From: Tridacna crocea
Taxonomy: Eukaryota; Mollusca; Bivalvia; Cardiida; Cardiidae
Assembly: GCA_943736015.1 (NCBI GenBank)
Contig: OX031065.1
Span: 53,732,992-53,796,991, forward strand
Reading direction: 5' to 3'
DNA length: 64,000 nt
A program made the translations under genes and the position numbers. Below are positions 11,085 through 34,664 of this stretch, piece by piece (position 1 is the stretch's first letter; every line of letters starts with the position of its first letter). The notes beneath the pieces are model-generated. The model searched no databases and had not been told where the DNA came from. It saw nothing but the letters and a program-made list of their open reading frames with translations.

Positions 11085-12250
11085 GTCAAGTTTTGACATA
11101 AATTGATGTTCTTGTCATTATCATTTGAGATTTTGCCAGTAAGACCGTTGGCGCGGGAGGGGGGTCGTCTGTCACTTTAATTGGAGGTCTTGTAACTATA
11201 TTCTGGGGAATTTGTAAATAAAATTGGAAATTCTGTCACTTTGACTAGAGATTTTGTAACTGAATTTGGGGGATTTTGTCCCAGAATTGGAGATTCTGAC
11301 ACTTAGATTGAAGATCTTGTAACTAAGGATTTGGAGATCTTATAACTGAATTTATGGGGATTTTGACACGATTATTACTGAGTTTGTCAGTAGTATGGGA
11401 GATTTGGGGATTCTATCTCTTTGATTGGGGATTTTATAACTGAATTTGGTTGATTTTGTCACCTAAATTGGGGGTTCTGTCAGTTTGATAGGAGATCTTA
11501 TAACTGAATTTGGGGAAATTGTCACAAAGTTTAGGAGTCAGTCACTTTGATTGGAGATCTTGTAAATAAATTTGAGGGATTTTATCGGTAAAATTTGGGA
11601 TTCTGTCACTTTGGTAGGAGATCTTGTTACTGAATTTAGAGGAACTGACATTAAAATTGTGCATTTTAATTGCAGATTTTATTACTAAATTTGGGGGATT
11701 TTGTAACTGAAAGTGGGGTTTTAGTCACTTTGATTGGAGATCTTGTAACTGAATCAGTGTAGATGTAATTTCTGCACTAAAATTGGAGATTCTGTCATTT
11801 TGATTGGAGATCTTGAAACAATATCGGAGGATTTTGTTAATAAAACACACACTTTGTCACAAAGATTTAGAATTTAGTCACTTTGATCGAAGACCTTGTA
11901 ATTGAATTTGGGTAATTTTGTCACTAAAATTGGAGATTCTGTCATTTTGGTTGGAGATGTTGTAACCATAGTGGAGGATTTTGTTACTAAAACAAGTGAT
12001 TTTGTCACTAAAATTTGGGACTTAGTCACTTTGATTGGAGATCTTGTAACTGAATTGGGGTAATTTTGTCACTAAAATTGGAGATTCTGTCATTTTGATT
12101 GGAGATGTTGTAACCATATTGGAGGATTTTGTTAGTAAAATTTGGGATTCTGTCACTTTGATTGGACATCTTGTAACAGAATTTTGGGGATTTGGTCAGG
12201 GGATATTGTCATTAACATCCAGGATTCTGTCATTTAAAATGCGGTTAGTA
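11085..12250 (+). repeat. ~64-bp minisatellite array
   Basis: About 18 diverged units of GGAGATCTTGTAACTGAATT, TGGGGGATTTTGTCACTAAA, ATTGGAGATTCTGTCACTTT, GATT. No gene recognised in it. Confidence 0.85.
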
Positions 12251-17487: not shown

Positions 17488-18817
17488 GACAAGAACAAGC
17501 CTGGGACGAATAGAGCCATTCTTTCGGTATAAAAAGCACTGACAAGAGTAACTTGAAATGTTCGTTTTTTTAGGAAGAAAGAGCTGTCAGTATACACCAT
17601 ACTTTATTAGGTCCCAACGACAAATTGTCTACAAACTCACCTGTCGCCATTGTAAAAAGCAACACGTGGTAAAGTTCTATCTGTCTGTGAACATCTGAAT
17701 ATCACCTTAAATGAAAACCACAGCTTTTCATCCCCAACTTTCAGCTGCAGGTCGAGCAAGAGTTACTCTCCTTGGAACTTATCGATTATCTGGTCCGAAA
17801 GGATTTCCGATAACGGCCTGTCATATAGGATTCAGAAGGGAAAATTTTTTGATCGACTAAAACACAATTTTCTTCTAAAATGATTAAAATCTATAACGTC
17901 GTGAAGTATTCTGTAATATCTCTACTTTACTTCAATATAATTTTAATTCCTGTAGCAAAATGGGAAGTTGCGTCCATTTTGATTTAAAGTTACTGACCCA
18001 TTCTCCTTCTTATTTCTATATAAAGGTTGAAGAAATTTGCTCTTGCGCCGTTTTTGACGCTAAATAACATAAAAATGAATTGCAAGCAAAAAATCTATAA
18101 CGTCTTGAAGTATTCTATGTTTTGTTGTGATTATGATCAAAGTATTCGTCTACATTTGTGAAATTGAGATCTTGCGTCCATTTTAGTTTAAAAACGACAC
18201 TATCGTTAATTTTTGTATAAAAAATGCAGTATCGAGCAAAGTGAGATTTTAAGACTGGGTGAAAAGATTTAGCAACGGATAAAGGGAAGATAAGAACTGA
18301 TGACATGATAACCTTGTCTGTATTGTTTTGTTAAACCTGGATCCTGTTTTTACACATTGTCCAAATATATATAATGATTGTATTTATCATTTTTATACAT
18401 GTGTATACGGTGTGCGGTAAAAAAGCCAGAGGTAAAAAAGCCATAGGTAAAAAGGCCATAGGTAAAAAAGCCAGAAGTAAAACGGTAAAAAGGCCATAGG
18501 AAATAAGGCCATAGGTAAAAAAGCCAGAGCTAATTTTAGTATGTATGGTTTATTAAGAAAAAAAGAGCTAATTTAGTAGTATATGATTTAGAAGTATTTT
18601 GGGAAAAGGAGAAGCCAATTTTTCCTTTTCACACAATGTTTTATATCCTATCTTGATGTGTTGTATGCAGATTATTTCAATATGTCAGAGTCTGAAATTA
18701 GTTGTTTGATTAGGGGAACTTCTCCAGTCTTCAGCTACTGACTTTTGAAAACATTTAAGGAAAAGGAGAAACTGCCAATAACAAACAAATTTTCCTTTTC
18801 ACACATTTCCTTATATT

Positions 18818-20311
18818 AAGTTTTTTATCATTCTATTTGCTTCTTTTCGCAGATGATATTGTATTATTTACTACCAATCCTGCCACACTTCAAGCCCAAA
18901 TAAACAATTTATGTAGATATTCCAATGAATGGGGATTAAAGATAAACATATCTAAAACAAAATTCTGTGTTTTTCGGTCGGTTAATGAGCCCATTTATGC
19001 AGATATAACAATCAATGGAGAGACCATTGAACAAGTTGATAACTTTATTTATCTAGGAGTTAATTTTCATTACAATGGAAAGATGAATTCAGCTGTTACA
19101 ACGTTACATGACCAAGCTCTTAAAGCATATTACAATCTGTTGACCTTATTCGATAAAATTAATCTTGATATCAAATGTAAACTGTCTCTTTTCGATTCGA
19201 TGATTGTTCCTATTATTCTATATGGTTCTGAAGTTTGGGGAATTTATAATTTTAAGACTGTCGAAAAGCTGCACTTACGATTTTGTAGAAAAATACTTGG
19301 GGTGAGTCAGCAGACCCCAAACTATGCAATCTACGGAGAGCTTGGGCGTTTTCCTTTATACATTCTAGCGAAAGAGAGATCGATTGGTTTTTATCTTAAG
19401 TTACTAAAAAACCCAGATTCATTACTTTTTAAATCATTCCATGATCAAATACTTAGTAATGTTAAACACGGATGGGCTTATAAAATGAAAAAAACTATTG
19501 ATTTCTTAGGCTTTAACTATCTGAACCATCCATATGTTATTAATAATAATACGAACATCATACCTTTGCTCACATTATTACGAAACCGCTTAAGAGACCA
19601 TTTCGTTCAAGACTGGTTTGGTTACATTAATATTACTCCAAAATTAGATTATTTCAGCAGATTTAAAACAGAATTTAAATTTGAAAATTACCTTCAAAAC
19701 ATCCAAAACGAAAATCTCAGAAAAAATTTCACAAGGTTGAGACTTAGTTCACACTCTTTAGAAATCGAATTAGGTAGACGTAATAGGGTCGATAGAAATA
19801 ACCGTATCTGTAAACTTTGTCCTTTGATAACTGTAGAATCTGAATTCCATTTCTTACTATGTTGTCCAAAATATGATGAATTACGCAAAAAATACATTGG
19901 TAGAGTCCAGTGGCCCTCTCTGCATATGTTCTATAATTTGATGTCTTCTAGTAATAAAACTTCTCAAATAAGAATAGCCCGATATATATCTAGTGCACTT
20001 TTATTAAGGGAGGAATCCTTGAAACAGCAAATACTATACCCATAATTTCTGTCTCATGTGCCTAAATTTCAGTCCCATTAGCTTGAAATACCTTATGTCA
20101 CTTGTGTTATTGTTTTTTTTGTTTTTTTTGTCATACACTTATATAGTTTATTTTGTGTTTGTTTTCCCATTCAGAAATATCTTTGGCTTATCCTGTCTAA
20201 CATGTGTCTGTATTGTATTTTTCATATCAGTCTTTGCCATACCTTTTTTTGTAAATGGTCAAAGGCAACATGTATTGCCGATAACCAATAAAATGTATGT
20301 ATGTATGTATA
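18818..20311 (+). mobile_element. 5'-truncated non-LTR retrotransposon (LINE)
   Basis: The open frame at about 18837-20045 begins at the catalytic FADD box of a reverse transcriptase (residues 4-7), followed by thumb-like sequence (IYLGVNFHYNGK, ILYGSEVWG, IYGELGRFPLYI). Near the C terminus a C-x2-C...H...CP pattern (CKLCP, FHFLLCCPKY) is typical of LINE ORF2 ends. The palm upstream of FADD and the endonuclease are absent, so the copy was truncated at insertion. The 3' end has AATAAA followed by a (TATG)n tail at about 20290-20310. The insertion lies inside a larger inverted-repeat element whose ends are at 18418 and 21045. The clade was not assigned. The long uninterrupted frame suggests a fairly recent insertion. 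Confidence 0.88.
18837..20045 (+). CDS. reverse transcriptase fragment (C-terminal part)
   Basis: 402 codons without a stop. The true protein start is missing: the frame opens at a TTG just before the FADD active-site box, and upstream sequence in frame is short and not convincingly LINE. It cannot be functional because the N-terminal fingers, most of the palm and the endonuclease are gone. The cysteine/histidine cluster near residues 335-360 is the putative nucleic-acid-binding tail. Confidence 0.85.
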   Translation: MLLFADDIVLFTTNPATLQAQINNLCRYSNEWGLKINISKTKFCVFRSVNEPIYADITINGETIEQVDNFIYLGVNFHYNGKMNSAVTTLHDQALKAYYNLLTLFDKINLDIKCKLSLFDSMIVPIILYGSEVWGIYNFKTVEKLHLRFCRKILGVSQQTPNYAIYGELGRFPLYILAKERSIGFYLKLLKNPDSLLFKSFHDQILSNVKHGWAYKMKKTIDFLGFNYLNHPYVINNNTNIIPLLTLLRNRLRDHFVQDWFGYINITPKLDYFSRFKTEFKFENYLQNIQNENLRKNFTRLRLSSHSLEIELGRRNRVDRNNRICKLCPLITVESEFHFLLCCPKYDELRKKYIGRVQWPSLHMFYNLMSSSNKTSQIRIARYISSALLLREESLKQQILYP

Positions 20312-28800: not shown

Positions 28801-31800
28801 TATCGGACAACTAAAACTTAAGATCATACAACGCGTCTGTCGAGTCTAAGTTTGATAGATCTAGCGCTCTCTACAAAAGAGAAAAAAAATCTATTGAGTG
28901 GCACTTTGCAGCCTAAGGGTTTATCCTTAATCTCCCACAAAAATGAAATGAAACTTTAAAGTTGATGATAAAAAACACACATGTTGCTATTTCAAATTTA
29001 TTTTGGGGTAAATGTTTTCTTATCAAATAGAGTACATCCAAGATCAGACAGCACGTTCTATAATCTTCAGTTCTTGATCTACACTGTCTACTAAAGGTCG
29101 TTATGTTGTCCCTCGCAGCTAAAAGGGTTAAATTACCTCACGAAAACAAAAACAGTTCTATGAATAGAAGAATTCTTGATATGGGAGTGCAGTCTGTCGA
29201 TAATAAACATCCATTTTGCACATCATTAATTCGTTCACAGATAAATATTAGCCCAGAGTTGAGTTAGTATATTTCAGTGCAATTCTTGACATACTATTTC
29301 ATGTTATGGTGAAAACCCCTCTCGTGTTAAAACAACATTCTGTTGTTGTTGTTTTTCTTTTTACCATTTCCCCGTCCTGTATTCTCTATATGTTCACTTC
29401 TTCGATTTTGTGTATTTGTGATTGTTAAACTAATATTTATAAATGTCTTTTACTGTCAAAAGAGTCTACTGTGCTAAAAATACCTGCAATTTTATTTATC
29501 TTCTTTTTTTTTCATTTTCATCTTGAGAGTGCTTGTGCGAAAATGGGCAAGCTACTAGTATTTTTTGTTTAGATAGTATACTGTAAGTGCCTTCTTTGTA
29601 TAACAGAATCTGATACTAGTAAGCAGAATAAAACAAACCTCGAAAATAGCTAAGGTTTTCATTAAGAGCTGTAATTACTATGCAACTTGTTACGGGAGAC
29701 CACTCCTTCCTGCATGGCATACTCCCGATTTAAATACAATACCTGGCCACTGCGTCAGGGAGATATCTCTTTGGCTCAGTGGTTAGGGTATTGGCTTTGC
29801 GTCCGGGAGTTCGGAGTTCGAATCCCGCTCCGATCCTTATTTCTGCCATGCATTTATTCATTTGTTTCTTTGTTACGGACTTCGTTCGTAAGATGGGGGC
29901 TCGTCCGAGATTGGCCATTGAGCCATTAGTCCCATTTGTTGTCCAAAATCGGACTTCCTGCCTAATAAGGCTTTGAGTCATCAATAAATGATGACTTTAA
30001 GAGGGGGTGTGTTATGGGAGACCACTCCTTCCGGCATGGCATACTCCCGATTTAAATACAATACCTGGCTACTGTGTCAGGGAGATATCTCTTTGGCTCA
30101 GTGGTTAGGGTATTGGCTTTGCGTCCGGGAGTTCGGAGTTCGAATCCCGCTCCGATCCTTATTTCTGCCATGCATTTATTCATTTGTTTCTTTGTTACGG
30201 ACTTCGTTCGTAAGAAACTGTACATGTACGTACGCACGTTGTTACAATAATTCATGTCTGTGTATATTTGCAGACGGGGCGACATGTCCAAACAATTGGT
30301 CAGCGCATGATGACACGTGTTATTTCTTCAGTCGAGATGTCGAAAGCTGGCCTGGTTCCGTGGTAAACTTTTCAAATGACACAATCTTTTTTGCACTTTT
30401 GAATCTTGTGTAGATGGGTCTCTTTTATCAATTTCCTTGATAACGTAGGCCCAGAACGGCTAGATTTGTTCTGGTTTTGTTTTGTTCTGCAAAGCATATC
30501 TTAAGAAAAGTAATCAAACTATTAACACACTAGCAACTAAGTAGCCCTTGAAAAGAGAAAACTTGCTGGATACAAACAAGACTGAAATAAATATCAAATC
30601 TGATTATTAAGCATGTTCCAGTTAGATCTAGTCCAGTCAATTTTTTATTAAGTTCGATCCGCTTTGATCTGATGACTTTACCCAAGGCTCTTATCTATTT
30701 ACTTGTCAGAGTAGAGACACCATAACAAGACTGCTTATCAACAGTACATGTACATGCTATAAAGCTGTCTGACAAAGTTCCAGTCGCTGGTAAATATGCA
30801 GGTCCCAAACGTAGAAACAAAGTTTCTGGGTTTGCAGAAAAGATTTTTTTTGTATTTTTCATGCCATTTTTGTAGCATTTGTCGAAGACAAAACCACTAT
30901 GAGTTCAATAATGAATGTTTAATAGTGAGTTTTGAGGAATATGTATCGTTTTTTTTTTTTTTTTGCAAACTGGAATTAAATGAACCCAATTAAATTTAAT
31001 TTTTCTCAGGCAAATAAGTTTTTCGATAGCACTCAGATACATGTATATAATTGGAAATGGCGCATTGAAATAAAATGCATTAGGTCATCGATTGTGGAAA
31101 TACTTCTTTTTGATTGAAATAAATTACCCCCTCATGACCTTCTTTTGGCGCAATGAAATATACACATTTTTTTTGTCTTTGTCTACAGACCACTTTAGTT
31201 CTTGTGGCTTGTTCGTTCCAAAACTAATTCGTCCTTGGGCTTGTTCGTTCCATGATGGCAACCTACTCCATTTGATTGTGCATGAATATTTACAGGTCGA
31301 AAAATTTATTGTTATAGTAGATCTCTGAAAACCAAAGTTTTCAGTAAAAAACTTAATTCGATATATTTACATCATTTTTCTCCCTACCAATCATGCATCC
31401 TACAACGGACGTTTTCTCTGATTCTTACAGAATGATCAAAAGTAGACTACCAATACACAAATGATGCAAAGTATGACATCAGTACTTTCACTCTAAATAA
31501 AAAGATGTATGAATTTGCCAATTTTTAAATTAAAAATTGAATTATATTTTTTTTCTCCAAATGATTATTTTCACACAATGTCTTCTGTGATAAATGCCAC
31601 TTCAGCGTTTTCAAAGCTTTGATTTTTGTTTGTTTTAGGTACTGCTATACGTATGTGAATGATATCCATAGCTTTATAGTTGGCTACAAAAATTAAAGCA
31701 TAACTGATTTGTGGCTGTGAAATAAGTAAAAGCCATCAAGAATAGAGCTAAATACCATTCTCTGATTCCCATTGATATTGATAATGGTCCGGTGGCCCTC

Positions 31801-34664
31801 TCCAGCGTTACAAGATTTCAGTTTGGTTTAAAATACTCATTTGTATCAATTTTTAAAATCTCGAATTTTGCAGCCTATCATGGCTTACAGAATATTTGTG
31901 TCTCAGCGTGGTATTCGTGTCAGCTCCCTAAACATTCAGTCGACCTCCTACAACAGCTGAAAAAGACAATCCACTGAAACGTGTTTACAAAAGTGTTCAT
32001 ACCATAGCCTTTTACTAAACAAGTGGACAGTAAAGATATTGGTCAAGTGGCACGTTCTTTGCAATATTGTTTTCGTCTATGCCTTCCGCAAACGCCCATA
32101 AAGCGTCAATGAAAGTAAAGTATTCATATATCAATTATATTTAAGAAATAATCTTCATTCTATCGTGGTATATCGTTGAATAAACCACAGTTGTGAGTTA
32201 TGAGGCACAATAAATAATCCACGAGGGCGATAGCCCGAATGGGTTATTTATTGTGCCTCATAACTCACGATGTGGTTTATTAAACGATAAACCACGACAG
32301 AAAGAAGATTATTTCGATTCTAACATTGCCAATTCTCAGTGAAAGGAAAACAAGTTCAAACTTAGAGTAAAATTGCGGATGAAGATAATGTTCCGTTGAA
32401 TAACTCACTCATTGAATGACCTCACTCGATATAGGATGACGTCACTCTACATGGATTGTCGCAGATTTTACCACGTTTTCCTTGCACTGTGTTATAGGGC
32501 CAAAGTCGCGTGTCATGTTAGAATCATATATATACTACCATGACACTGGACTTTCTGCCTCATGCAATATGCAGCTGTAACAAATATTTCAAATATACGA
32601 AGTTATACATGTGATAAACAAGATCCGAATTGCCGTTTGATAAATCTCATATCTGTGTGGTCTACTCGTAAGTTGACACGGTTTGCTGACATATATAAGA
32701 TTTCATTCGACTTTCATAGACTAATTTTTGAACAAGTTAGGTTTCATATTAATAACTTTAGACGAATTCTCTTCAAGATATTAAAAGTACATGTATTCCC
32801 AACAATATCCATCTCGTGCCAAAGACCGGTCCTTCTTGGCACGAGATTTGATGAACACAATACCTCTGATGCCTCAATCACTCTATCCTTGACAATCAAA
32901 CACCATCCACAACTTTCGCCCACAAAGAAAAGGTTTTCAGACGATATAATTAAGTAACAGGTGGTCCTTTGACTCTCAGTTCATCATTTTTTTCAGGTTA
33001 TGTGTCAGACAATGGGTGCAAATCTAGTGGAAATTGAAAACTTCTCCGAAGATAATTTCATAAGACAAAATATTAGAGGTTTGTACGATTTACACGAACT
33101 TATTAATACTAGTTATAATTGGATATCAAAATTCTGATGTTTTAACTCTTTACCAAACGACAAAATTCTAGACGTGTCTAACTTTGAAAGCACTTTCAGA
33201 TGACAAAATAAATTGGACTTAAAATTTGAAATTTGTTTTGGGAATGGTAAAAAAATGCGGGAAAAGGAAAAAATGCTGGTTACCAGCATTTTTTCCTTTT
33301 CCCACATTTTTTTTTTTTAAGTTTCTGTCTTGTAGTCTTGAAAACCTAGGATTGTTTAGAAAAGAGTTAATTAATAATAATGCTTGATTGCTGAAAGAGA
33401 CAGGGACACACACGAAGAGTTTTGTTGATGTTGATCCAAACATTGTGGCTATTTACATGTTGATGCAAACATTGTGGCTACTTACATTTTGATGTTGATG
33501 GAAACATTGTGGCTATTTACATGTTGATGCAAACATTGTGGCTATTTACATTTTGATGTTGATGCAAACATTATGGCTATTTACACTGAATTAATGCGTG
33601 GTGCTTTTATACTTTACAAAAAAAATACGAGTTTGAAAGACTTACTTGAGAAGGAATCCAAAAAGCAAATGGAAAAAAACTATTGGAAAATAGCAAAATC
33701 TCCTATTCTTACACTGTTTTTGATCCTTCCACAGACAAATTCCATCATCGAGCCGATTTTTAGTTGTCGTTAGTAAATTATGTAGTTGATATGGATCAGT
33801 TTAGAATTGTGTCATCTCGTAAATACTTGGGGAGAGGGTAAGGGAATACGGTATGTCTTGCGACTATGGAAAATTGTCATTACATTTGTTTAAAAATGGC
33901 ATTTTATTTACGTTTCATTTAATAAAAAAAGGAAGACTTCATATTTTTAGACTATGGAAAATTGTCATTATATTTATTTAGAAATGACACTTTATTTACG
34001 TTTCATTTAATAAAAAAAAGAAGACTTCAGATTTCTAGACTACGGAAAAGTGTCATTATGTTTATTTAGAAATGGAATATTATTTACGTTTCATTCAATA
34101 AAAAAAAAAAGACTTCAGATTTCTAGACTACGGAAAAGTGTAAATATATTTATTTAGAAATGGAATATTATTTACGTTTCATTCAATAAAAAAAAGAAGA
34201 CTTCAGATTTCTCGACTATGGAAAATTGTCATTATATTTATTTAGAAATGGCATTTTATTTACGTTTCATTCAATAAAAAAAAAGAAGACTTCAGATTTC
34301 TAGACTATGGAAAAGTGTTATTATATTTATTTAAAAATGGCATTTTATTTACGTTTCATTCACTAAAAAAACAAAAAAAGACTTCAGATTTCTACAATCA
34401 CATAGAAGTTGATGGTCATGATTCGCTACTGCAGGACCCTATGCTTGGATTGGCCTTACTGACGTAGAAGAGGAAGGGCAGTTTAAATGGATGACCTCAC
34501 ATACTGACCTGACCGACTACAGCCATTGGTCACCGGGTGAACCAAACAGTGCGAATTCCAATGAAAACTGTGTAATAATAAGGTCACAGAGCAAGGGCAA
34601 TGGTTGGGATGACGATTCCTGTTACAAAACCCATAACTACGTCTGCGAAAAGAAGTTGGAGTAA
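25757..34664 (+). CDS. secreted C-type lectin, complete four-exon gene
   Basis: Exons 25757-25814, 30274-30362, 32997-33078 and 34435-34664 join in frame to 459 nt, 152 aa. Exon 1 gives a signal peptide (MKMFNLRKIILTTLAIYVTG). The rest is one C-type lectin domain: CPNNW and TCYFF, the MCQTMG...LVEIEN helix, WIGLTD, GEPNS, ENC, GNGWDDDSC and YVCEK, with six cysteines of the long form. EPN predicts mannose/GlcNAc-type Ca2+-dependent binding; WDD replaces the usual WND. A secreted recognition role, as in bivalve mucosal or haemolymph immunity, is inferred from the family. Intron 1 holds a broken Tc1 transposase, a miniature LTR element and other repeats; intron 3 starts with a MITE and ends with an 88-bp tandem repeat. 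The paralogue at 5.3-7.5 kb is decayed. No poly(A) signal was assigned. Confidence 0.9.
26014..26150. repeat. family L repeat
   Basis: AGTATCGACCCAGGTCAGCC then TGCGCAATCCGCAGAGG, in lectin intron 1. Confidence 0.65.
26558..26712. mobile_element. family A MITE, central palindrome deleted
   Basis: Ends intact (TTAACCCTTTTCCCAAACAA ... GTTTGGTAAAGGATAAA), but the interior jumps from the left arm straight to GTGTTTTCTACC. Confidence 0.8.
26715..27640 (+). pseudogene. Tc1-like (IS630/Tc1/mariner) transposase pseudogene
   Basis: Pieces of a Tc1-family transposase appear in order but in shifting frames: an N-terminal HTH segment (GTMGSL..REVSGALGVY, AITRAWMRYH; 26765-26865), RYLVIHARRNRFATAS (about 26918-26965), DWRSVLVIDLSRYYLDY and GGVWRRPG (27120-27205), a VWG-type motif (about 27440) and ILIDDNGRPYIAYVVQ (27585-27635). 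The first catalytic Asp survives (GAT 27144-27146) but the usual DES is DLS; the second Asp is GAC 27597-27599. Stops and frameshifts break it throughout. A family H palindromic element (27252-27432) is inserted between the first-Asp and VWG segments. It lies in lectin intron 1 and is not part of the lectin. Confidence 0.85.
27252..27432. mobile_element. family H MITE inside Tc1 pseudogene
   Basis: CTGGTGTTATGCGGAGAGAT start, alternating ATGACC/GGTCAT and CTACGTAGAG palindromes, TTTCTCTGCATTACATCTG end. It splits the transposase remnant. Confidence 0.78.
27645..28190. other. no gene recognised
   Basis: AT-rich with one 115-codon frame lacking any recognisable motif. Confidence 0.4.
28206..28705 (+). 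mobile_element. family E repeat, copy 2
   Basis: Palindrome GTACGGTCAGGTGGCAGGGG with long arms enclosing CATGTCGTCCCGAGCCGAAG, then the same body as copy 1, to CGGCATGTTAACCAATCAGA. Confidence 0.75.
28927..29131. mobile_element. family B MITE
   Basis: TTAA ends; ATCCAAGATCAGACAGCACG palindrome; right end CTCGCAGCTAAAAGGGTTAA. Confidence 0.65.
29688..29893 (+). repeat. 5' LTR of TRIM element
   Basis: Starts TGTTACGGGAG, contains a Pol III-like A box (29772-29782, TGGCTCAGTGG) and B box (29815-29825, AGTTCGAATCC), and ends CGTTCGTAAGA abutting the primer-binding site. Confidence 0.87.
29772..29825 (+). promoter_or_regulatory. tRNA-like A and B boxes in LTR
   Basis: The A and B boxes are spaced as in a tRNA gene. 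The flanking arms do not fold into a full cloverleaf (poor T-stem and acceptor pairing), so it is a tRNA-derived promoter, not a tRNA gene. Confidence 0.65.
29894..29911 (+). promoter_or_regulatory. primer-binding site, tRNA-Pro type
   Basis: TGGGGGCTCGTCCGAGAT, contiguous with the LTR. It differs at one base from the classic proline-tRNA site TGGGGGCTCGTCCGGGAT. Confidence 0.8.
30010..30215 (+). repeat. 3' LTR of TRIM element
   Basis: Identical in length to the 5' copy; A box 30094-30104, B box 30137-30147. It follows the purine tract and ends 58 bp before lectin exon 2. Confidence 0.87.
30274..30362 (+). CDS. lectin exon 2
   Basis: 89 nt, acceptor ttgcag, donor gtaaac. It reads DGATCPNNWSAHDDTCYFF then SRDVESWPGSV. 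It starts 58 bp after the 3' LTR of the miniature retroelement. Confidence 0.88.
30370..32130. other. lectin intron 2, mostly unassigned
   Basis: Includes a repeat at 31190-31290 (CTTGTTCGTTCCATGATGGC, TACTCCATTTGATTGTGCAT), whose inverted relative is at 15430-15520. No exon-like frame. Confidence 0.5.
32138..32526 (-). mobile_element. family D element, copy 4
   Basis: Reverse orientation to the other copies; it ends GCGTGTCATGTTAGAATC. In lectin intron 2. Confidence 0.75.
32875..32996 (+). repeat. duplicated intron-3'-end segment
   Basis: CAATCACTCTATCC ... CTTTGACTCTCAGTTCATCA and the pyrimidine tract directly before lectin exon 3. Nearly the same sequence lies inside a MITE at 36204-36326. 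Confidence 0.8.
32997..33078 (+). CDS. lectin exon 3
   Basis: 82 nt, acceptor tttttttcag, reading VMCQTMGANLVEIENF then SEDNFIRQNIR. The ~120 bp just upstream recur inside a MITE at 36204-36326. Confidence 0.88.
33142..33370. mobile_element. family A MITE just after lectin exon 3
   Basis: Both TTAA ends intact; starts 64 bp after the donor site. Confidence 0.85.
33426..33584 (+). repeat. short tandem repeat
   Basis: Five alternating ~30-36 bp units of GATGTTGATGCAAACATTGT, GGCTATTTACAT. Confidence 0.85.
33853..34396 (+). repeat. ~88-bp tandem repeat before lectin exon 4
   Basis: Six units of GACTTCAGATTTCTAGACTA, TGGAAAATTGTCATTATATT, TATTTAGAAATGGCATTTTA, TTTACGTTTCATTCAATAAA, ending 38 bp before the exon. 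Each unit carries an AATAAA. Confidence 0.9.
34435..34664 (+). CDS. lectin exon 4, terminal
   Basis: 230 nt from acceptor ctactgcag to TAA at 34662-34664. It contains WIGLTDVEEEGQFKW, the EPN triplet, WDDDSC and the last cysteine in YVCEKK. Confidence 0.92.

Follow-up and report, generated by a model that had tools for sequence, protein, structure and literature searches.

TRIMs whose LTRs contain a tRNA-like sequence were named Helenus (TRIMp3) by Kojima in 2024 and are described from fungi, animals and one plant (PMC10886601). For bivalves that paper reports 51 families from five orders, with Pteriomorphia hosts in its Table 1; it gives target-site duplications (TSDs) of 4 bp for animals, names tRNA-Pro among the bivalve primers and considers Gypsy elements the likely helpers in animals. 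It also proposes that Helenus originated by insertion of a SINE, and it calls transcription by RNA polymerase III (Pol III) unvalidated. Helenus is mentioned as well in one sentence of a 2026 meeting report (PMC12859917). The first-pass annotation of the locus studied here had taken it for a new animal analogue of the plant element Cassandra; since tRNA-bearing TRIMs were published in 2024 as Helenus, this central claim of novelty was already in print (PMC10886601).

The window, i.e. the whole stretch of 64,000 nucleotides that was analysed, is C10:53732992-53796991 of a 1.05-Gb genome. It contains one element of this kind (L001 in our numbering of loci), in which two direct repeats, 98% identical to each other, delimit 528 bp (29688-30215; Table 1); no other copy was found inside the window by blastn. 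All the anatomical parts that had been claimed, namely the 206-bp LTRs, the primer-binding site (PBS), the purine tract, the AACT duplication, the 116-bp interior and the A and B boxes, were confirmed, and its picture of a TRIM with tRNA-type promoter boxes in the LTRs is right as to structure. The spacing from A to B box within an LTR is presumably close to that of a tRNA gene, and the 18-base PBS is putatively complementary to the 3′ end of tRNA-Pro. Among the 30 loci L001-L030 this site reads TGGGGGCTCGTCCGGGAT in 28 and has an A at position 15 in 2, the window copy being one of the latter. The element has the makeup of a TRIM: it is shorter than 1 kb, has two LTRs, a PBS and a polypurine tract (PPT), is flanked by a TSD and lacks coding capacity, the sole frame of at least 110 aa that touches it (29988-30413, 141 aa from stop to stop) crossing the 3′ LTR into the flank.

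Table 1. Features of the window copy and its immediate flanks, in window positions
Feature	Position	Strand	Remark
5′ target-site duplication AACT	29684..29687	.	
5′ LTR, 206 bp	29688..29893	+	first letters TGTTA, last GTAAGA
TATA-like TTTAAATA in U3, LTR 42-49	29729..29736	+	predicted tRNA-type start lies ~29 bp further downstream; role and start position putative
A box TGGCTCAGTGGT, 5′ LTR, LTR 85-96	29772..29783	+	
B box AGTTCGAATCC, 5′ LTR, LTR 128-138	29815..29825	+	
Putative PBS TGGGGGCTCGTCCGAGAT, tRNA-Pro type	29894..29911	+	abuts the 5′ LTR
Interior, 116 bp	29894..30009	+	without TTTT; single AATAAA at 29983
Polypurine tract AGAGGGGGTG	30000..30009	+	
3′ LTR, 206 bp	30010..30215	+	differs from the 5′ LTR at 4 sites
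A box, 3′ LTR	30094..30105	+	
B box, 3′ LTR	30137..30147	+	
3′ target-site duplication AACT	30216..30219	.	
Nearest downstream TTTT, in host DNA	30369..30372	+	where a Pol III RNA reading through the element would be expected to stop; putative role

In our view the element is a non-autonomous LTR retrotransposon that was active recently and belongs to the published Helenus kind, its LTRs carrying a tRNA-like Pol III promoter, and we put the probability of this reading, predicted Pol III transcription included, at about 85%. The window copy matches the structural features tested of Helenus as described in PMC10886601, the assignment being made by description and not by family sequence. A and B boxes of tRNA-like sequence lie within each of its LTRs and are also seen in other copies. 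No 5S rRNA-derived promoter of the Cassandra sort was detected in the LTRs: no Rfam family reached its gathering score in the window, and the boxes are of tRNA type. A functional tRNA was considered and dropped, because neither ARAGORN (0 genes) nor Rfam (0 hits reaching the gathering score) recognised the tRNA-like part, and the predicted fold of this part was no better than that of shuffled sequences (z 0.77); what is present are therefore promoter-like boxes, not a tRNA. An imperfect palindrome (29742-29787, with 27-nt arms that are 78% complementary) lies just before and over the A box of the 5′ LTR, so that the predicted start is preceded by a stretch resembling an A box in inverted orientation.

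The element is far from being a sole locus. An exact pattern spanning B box to PBS had 1,919 matches in the genome, a few of those listed belonging to the related family described below, and 0 in the reversed control. The first genome search returned at least 41 full-length matches, all of them 98-99% identical except the window copy itself, and the haplotype of the window copy is present twice at LTR spacing in 1,093 places. Two samples of copies were studied: the 41 best-matching ones, among them the window copy as well as L003 and L004, which overlap, and a set of 46 full-length copies extracted from 50 loci taken in order along C1 (passing over C1:8781514, which is L041) and picked by an exact B box and PBS in the 5′ LTR, a choice that brings a bias. 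Outside the 46 remained L042, L049, L051, L060 and L072, which gave no element by the full-length criteria, L058 and L062, which repeat L057 and L061, and an extra unit in L063 beyond the gap limit; array members were counted singly, so that L061, L074 and L089 are represented twice each. The short duplications expected by the first-pass annotation around dispersed copies are there: exact duplications of 4 bp, the length given for Helenus in animals, flank 35 of the 41 best copies, and exact duplications are also present in 36 of the 46 copies of the C1 set, while a 5-bp duplication match was seen by eye at L034. The two LTRs are identical in 23/41 best copies and without substitutions in 12/46 copies of the C1 set, in which the LTR divergence has a median of 1.45% and a maximum of 6.5%. 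At several loci tandem arrays of the type LTR-interior-LTR-interior-LTR occur, and a single duplication bounds the whole array at L003/L004 (TCAG), L061 (CCGT) and L089 (ATTG). For one LTR subfamily, a 32-base piece matched the genome 2,248 times; among the roughly 100 of these listed, 12 that by eye have neither a partner nor a PBS among the matches listed may be solo LTRs. The element is thus a genuine, young representative, present in high copy number (well over a thousand), of the published kind. The 5′ LTR region of L042 (1321-1578) has direct and inverted LTR matches flanking a perfect palindrome, ACTGAGCCAAAGAGATATCTCTTTGGCTCAGT, such as a strand switch would leave.

The steps beyond the anatomy, including a full-length Pol III RNA and its rescue by a partner LTR element, we infer from the sequence. 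Pol III would start near LTR 71 of the 5′ LTR, cross the rest of this LTR, the T4-free interior and the 3′ LTR, and would stop at the first T-run of the flanking host DNA; at L001-L030, array members included, the next T4 lies 5 to 748 bp past the end of the match. The RNA would have R-U5 at its 5′ end and U3-R-U5 followed by a host tail at its 3′ end. Minus-strand DNA would be begun from a tRNA-Pro primer at the PBS, the strong-stop product would transfer to the R-U5 of the 3′ LTR whatever the 3′ tail, the second strand would be primed from the purine tract, and completion and integration would be performed by the enzymes of an autonomous LTR element, a Gypsy element according to PMC10886601. 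Because the strong-stop transfer would be indifferent to the tail, the element would need no terminator of its own, and an internal terminator would be harmful. Neither AATAAA nor ATTAAA occurs inside either LTR of the window copy, the only one being interior, upstream of the 3′ LTR, and the lack of AATAAA in the LTRs fits Pol III read-through. As to the autonomous partner, the tRNA-Pro-type PBS of the element was found nowhere outside the element group in the window and loci L001-L091. A tentative proposal, against which we would sooner bet than on it, is that Helenus-type elements carry no terminator of their own: Pol III would have to traverse the entire element, TTTT would be selected out of every transmitted copy unless hidden in a tRNA anticodon loop, and the RNA would end in host DNA. 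In the main text of PMC10886601 neither 'TTTT' nor 'poly-T' appears, and the two occurrences of 'terminat' belong to a passage on Cassandra; TTTT avoidance was not found discussed in that main text and is the only fresh point here. Among the papers listed from the PMC open-licence library, none dealt with T4 in TRIMs, Helenus included.

That the 528 bp contain no TTTT, the next one downstream starting at 30369, had been noted by the first-pass annotation and was confirmed by a count on the + strand, although TTT occurs 8 times per LTR. This absence could be due to chance combined with shared descent, the copies stemming from few recent sources so that many of them count once, an explanation to which we give close to an even chance. 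Dinucleotide shuffles of the 322-bp unit had a mean of 4.8 TTTT and a P(0) of 0.0105 (P=0.0255 for the LTR by itself and P=0.40 for the interior), and counting runs of T4 or more gave P=0.009; with plain base shuffles the mean was 3.4 and P(0) was 0.0675. Given these values, and given that 18 of 1,197 overlapping 528-bp segments of the window are likewise without TTTT, the absence is unusual but not overwhelming. In the copies, TTTT is found in 0/41 of the best and in 3/46 of the C1 set; in these three it is located in the 3′ LTR or the interior, never in the 5′ LTR and never in both LTRs, and therefore looks post-insertional. That TTTT is present in both LTRs of none of the 46 copies speaks against chance and descent, and so does the GGYYTTG site between the boxes, at which the same haplotype occurs twice at LTR spacing in 1,093 places as CT and in 169 as TC, versus 3 places at 2 loci as TT, the haplotype that makes TTTT (a CC haplotype is also present in the C1 sample).

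Counts of variants, on the other hand, agree with chance and descent. T4-making variants number 0/52 in the 41 best copies (1.65 expected), 2/117 among singletons (4.1 expected) and 2/42 among shared variants in the context of the window copy (1.5 expected), the last two counts leaving out L004 and the copies that are not 528 bp long (L016-L018); none of these tests for T4 avoidance is significant. One of the two shared T4-making variants, the C-to-T change at LTR 108, occurs in copies as GGTCTTG, where because of the neighbouring C no TTTT is formed; the other is a C-to-T change by which the 3′ LTRs of L073 and L077 read CTTTTT, so that TTTT is indeed made, in one LTR at each locus. A C-to-T change that makes T5 at LTR 82 is found in 28 places, never as a pair at LTR spacing, versus 35 places and one pair for the change two bases upstream that makes no T4, a comparison which does not discriminate and in which both counts include copies of the related family. 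At C1:42773354, one of the roughly 100 B-box-to-PBS matches listed, a T5 was seen by eye in U5.

A related, older family that does contain TTTT is represented by L060:1514-1731, L003:872-1402, L088:1101-1300 and L051. Its U3, both boxes, PBS and interior are like those of the family of the window copy, but its LTR measures 218 bp (L060) or 227 bp (L003) instead of 206 bp, and its A and B boxes are ~62 apart instead of 42, the stretch between them being longer and quite different. A search with the L060 LTR gave 4,808 first-look candidates, the family of the window copy probably among them; 42 other places are 80-86% identical to this LTR among the matches listed. Both LTRs of L003 contain CTTTTAATC, and with it TTTT, and an exact pattern of two such motifs, set apart by an LTR-like distance, matches at 7 places distributed over 5 contigs, including that of L003, the only one read. 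It follows that the related family moved with TTTT, which speaks for chance and descent. TTTT is found at 3 positions in the L060 LTR, and also in L088 and in L072, which is old and contains a nested insert; the L003 unit has one T-run versus 2.9 expected (P=0.12). The motif resembles, as we see it, the anticodon loop of tRNA-Lys(UUU), and real tRNA-Lys(UUU) genes have TTTT in the anticodon loop and are still transcribed. Universal avoidance of T4 is rejected: what had been claimed of the window copy extends to its family in the copies read and is not a rule, the LTRs of L003 both having TTTT. T4 avoidance is thus a moderately supported property of the family of the window copy, not a law.

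Transcription by Pol II instead of Pol III would make the element an ordinary TRIM, driven by Pol II from the TATA-like box, whose tRNA-like part would be the relic of a SINE captured in the LTR and would have no role in transcription. Pol II may indeed transcribe the element, because TTTAAATA at LTR 42-49 is placed ~29 bp before LTR 71, the predicted start. The same letters recur in the related L060, L072 and L088, in one stretch of L051 and in one LTR of L003, but they are altered or absent in L049, in the other stretch of L051 and in the second LTR of L003. The origin by SINE insertion proposed for Helenus would suit a relic (PMC10886601); against it, boxes A and B persist in the related family despite a different intervening arm. 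The scarcity of TTTT amid so many TTT also tells against Pol II, as does the position of the sole AATAAA, where cleavage would lose R. All this considered, we judge Pol II transcription of a plain TRIM unlikely. Among the sampled copies, variant states of the 3′ LTR common to at least 2 loci number 1 in the 23 A/B-box sites, versus 8 in the 31 sites between the boxes (p=0.06) and versus 23 in the 183 other sites together (p=0.49); no significant extra conservation of the boxes over the rest of the LTR was found, which counts against the preferred Pol III reading. A tRNA-derived SINE or a tandem repeat in place of an LTR element, to which the tRNA-like boxes and the tandem arrays might point, is for practical purposes ruled out by the PBS, the PPT, the two LTRs and the 4-bp duplications that enclose the whole.

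Less than 60 bp downstream of the element, the + strand of the window reads at 30274-30368 as the start of a C-type lectin domain, behind a splice-acceptor-like TTTGCAG; because of this exon-like start, the window copy probably sits in an intron of a lectin gene. With 30261-30368 as query the best PDB match was CLEC12A (E=1.3e-5), and Pfam found nothing in a 32-residue piece of the lectin-like stretch. Elsewhere in the window, a 428-residue open frame at 18759-20045 includes the C-terminal portion of a reverse transcriptase (Pfam RVT_1, E=1.4e-9), which from its appearance alone would be of non-LTR type, and two long tandem arrays are present, at 33862-34394 (period 88, 6.0 copies, 91% match) and at 11675-12157 (period 148, 3.2 copies, 80% match). 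In the same assembly COX1 lies at C31:26516-27850 with 3 in-frame TGA, on a contig of >27.8 kb, which is large for an animal mitochondrion, if it is mitochondrial.

A Helenus-type element with predicted Pol III transcription, our preferred reading, can be compared with three described systems. To Helenus as set out in PMC10886601 it is alike in being a non-coding TRIM whose LTRs each have a tRNA-like sequence with an A and a B box, in having a PBS, a PPT and a 4-bp TSD, and also in forming tandem arrays, there in a zebrafish family. With biv-TRIM (PMC6934838) it shares the status of a bivalve TRIM with tandem forms, a likeness of description and not of sequence; unlike in our element, a canonical PBS could not be identified in biv-TRIM, and 'polymerase III' occurs 0 times in the main text of that paper. 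The many young copies, a large proportion of them with identical LTRs, offer material with which to test the use of Pol III that PMC10886601 calls unvalidated, and the idea that the element has no terminator is worth a proper test. Should T4 avoidance hold over families, it would provide a sequence-only test by which LTR elements driven by Pol III could be told from those driven by Pol II, and would show how an LTR element can make copies of itself when its RNA stops in host DNA. Cassandra of plants (PMC7215508, PMC10853983) is similar in that its LTRs contain a small-RNA gene's Pol III promoter, in its tandem arrays and in being non-coding; if the no-terminator design is true, it would be a 3′-end design unlike that of Cassandra, whose LTRs keep a terminator.
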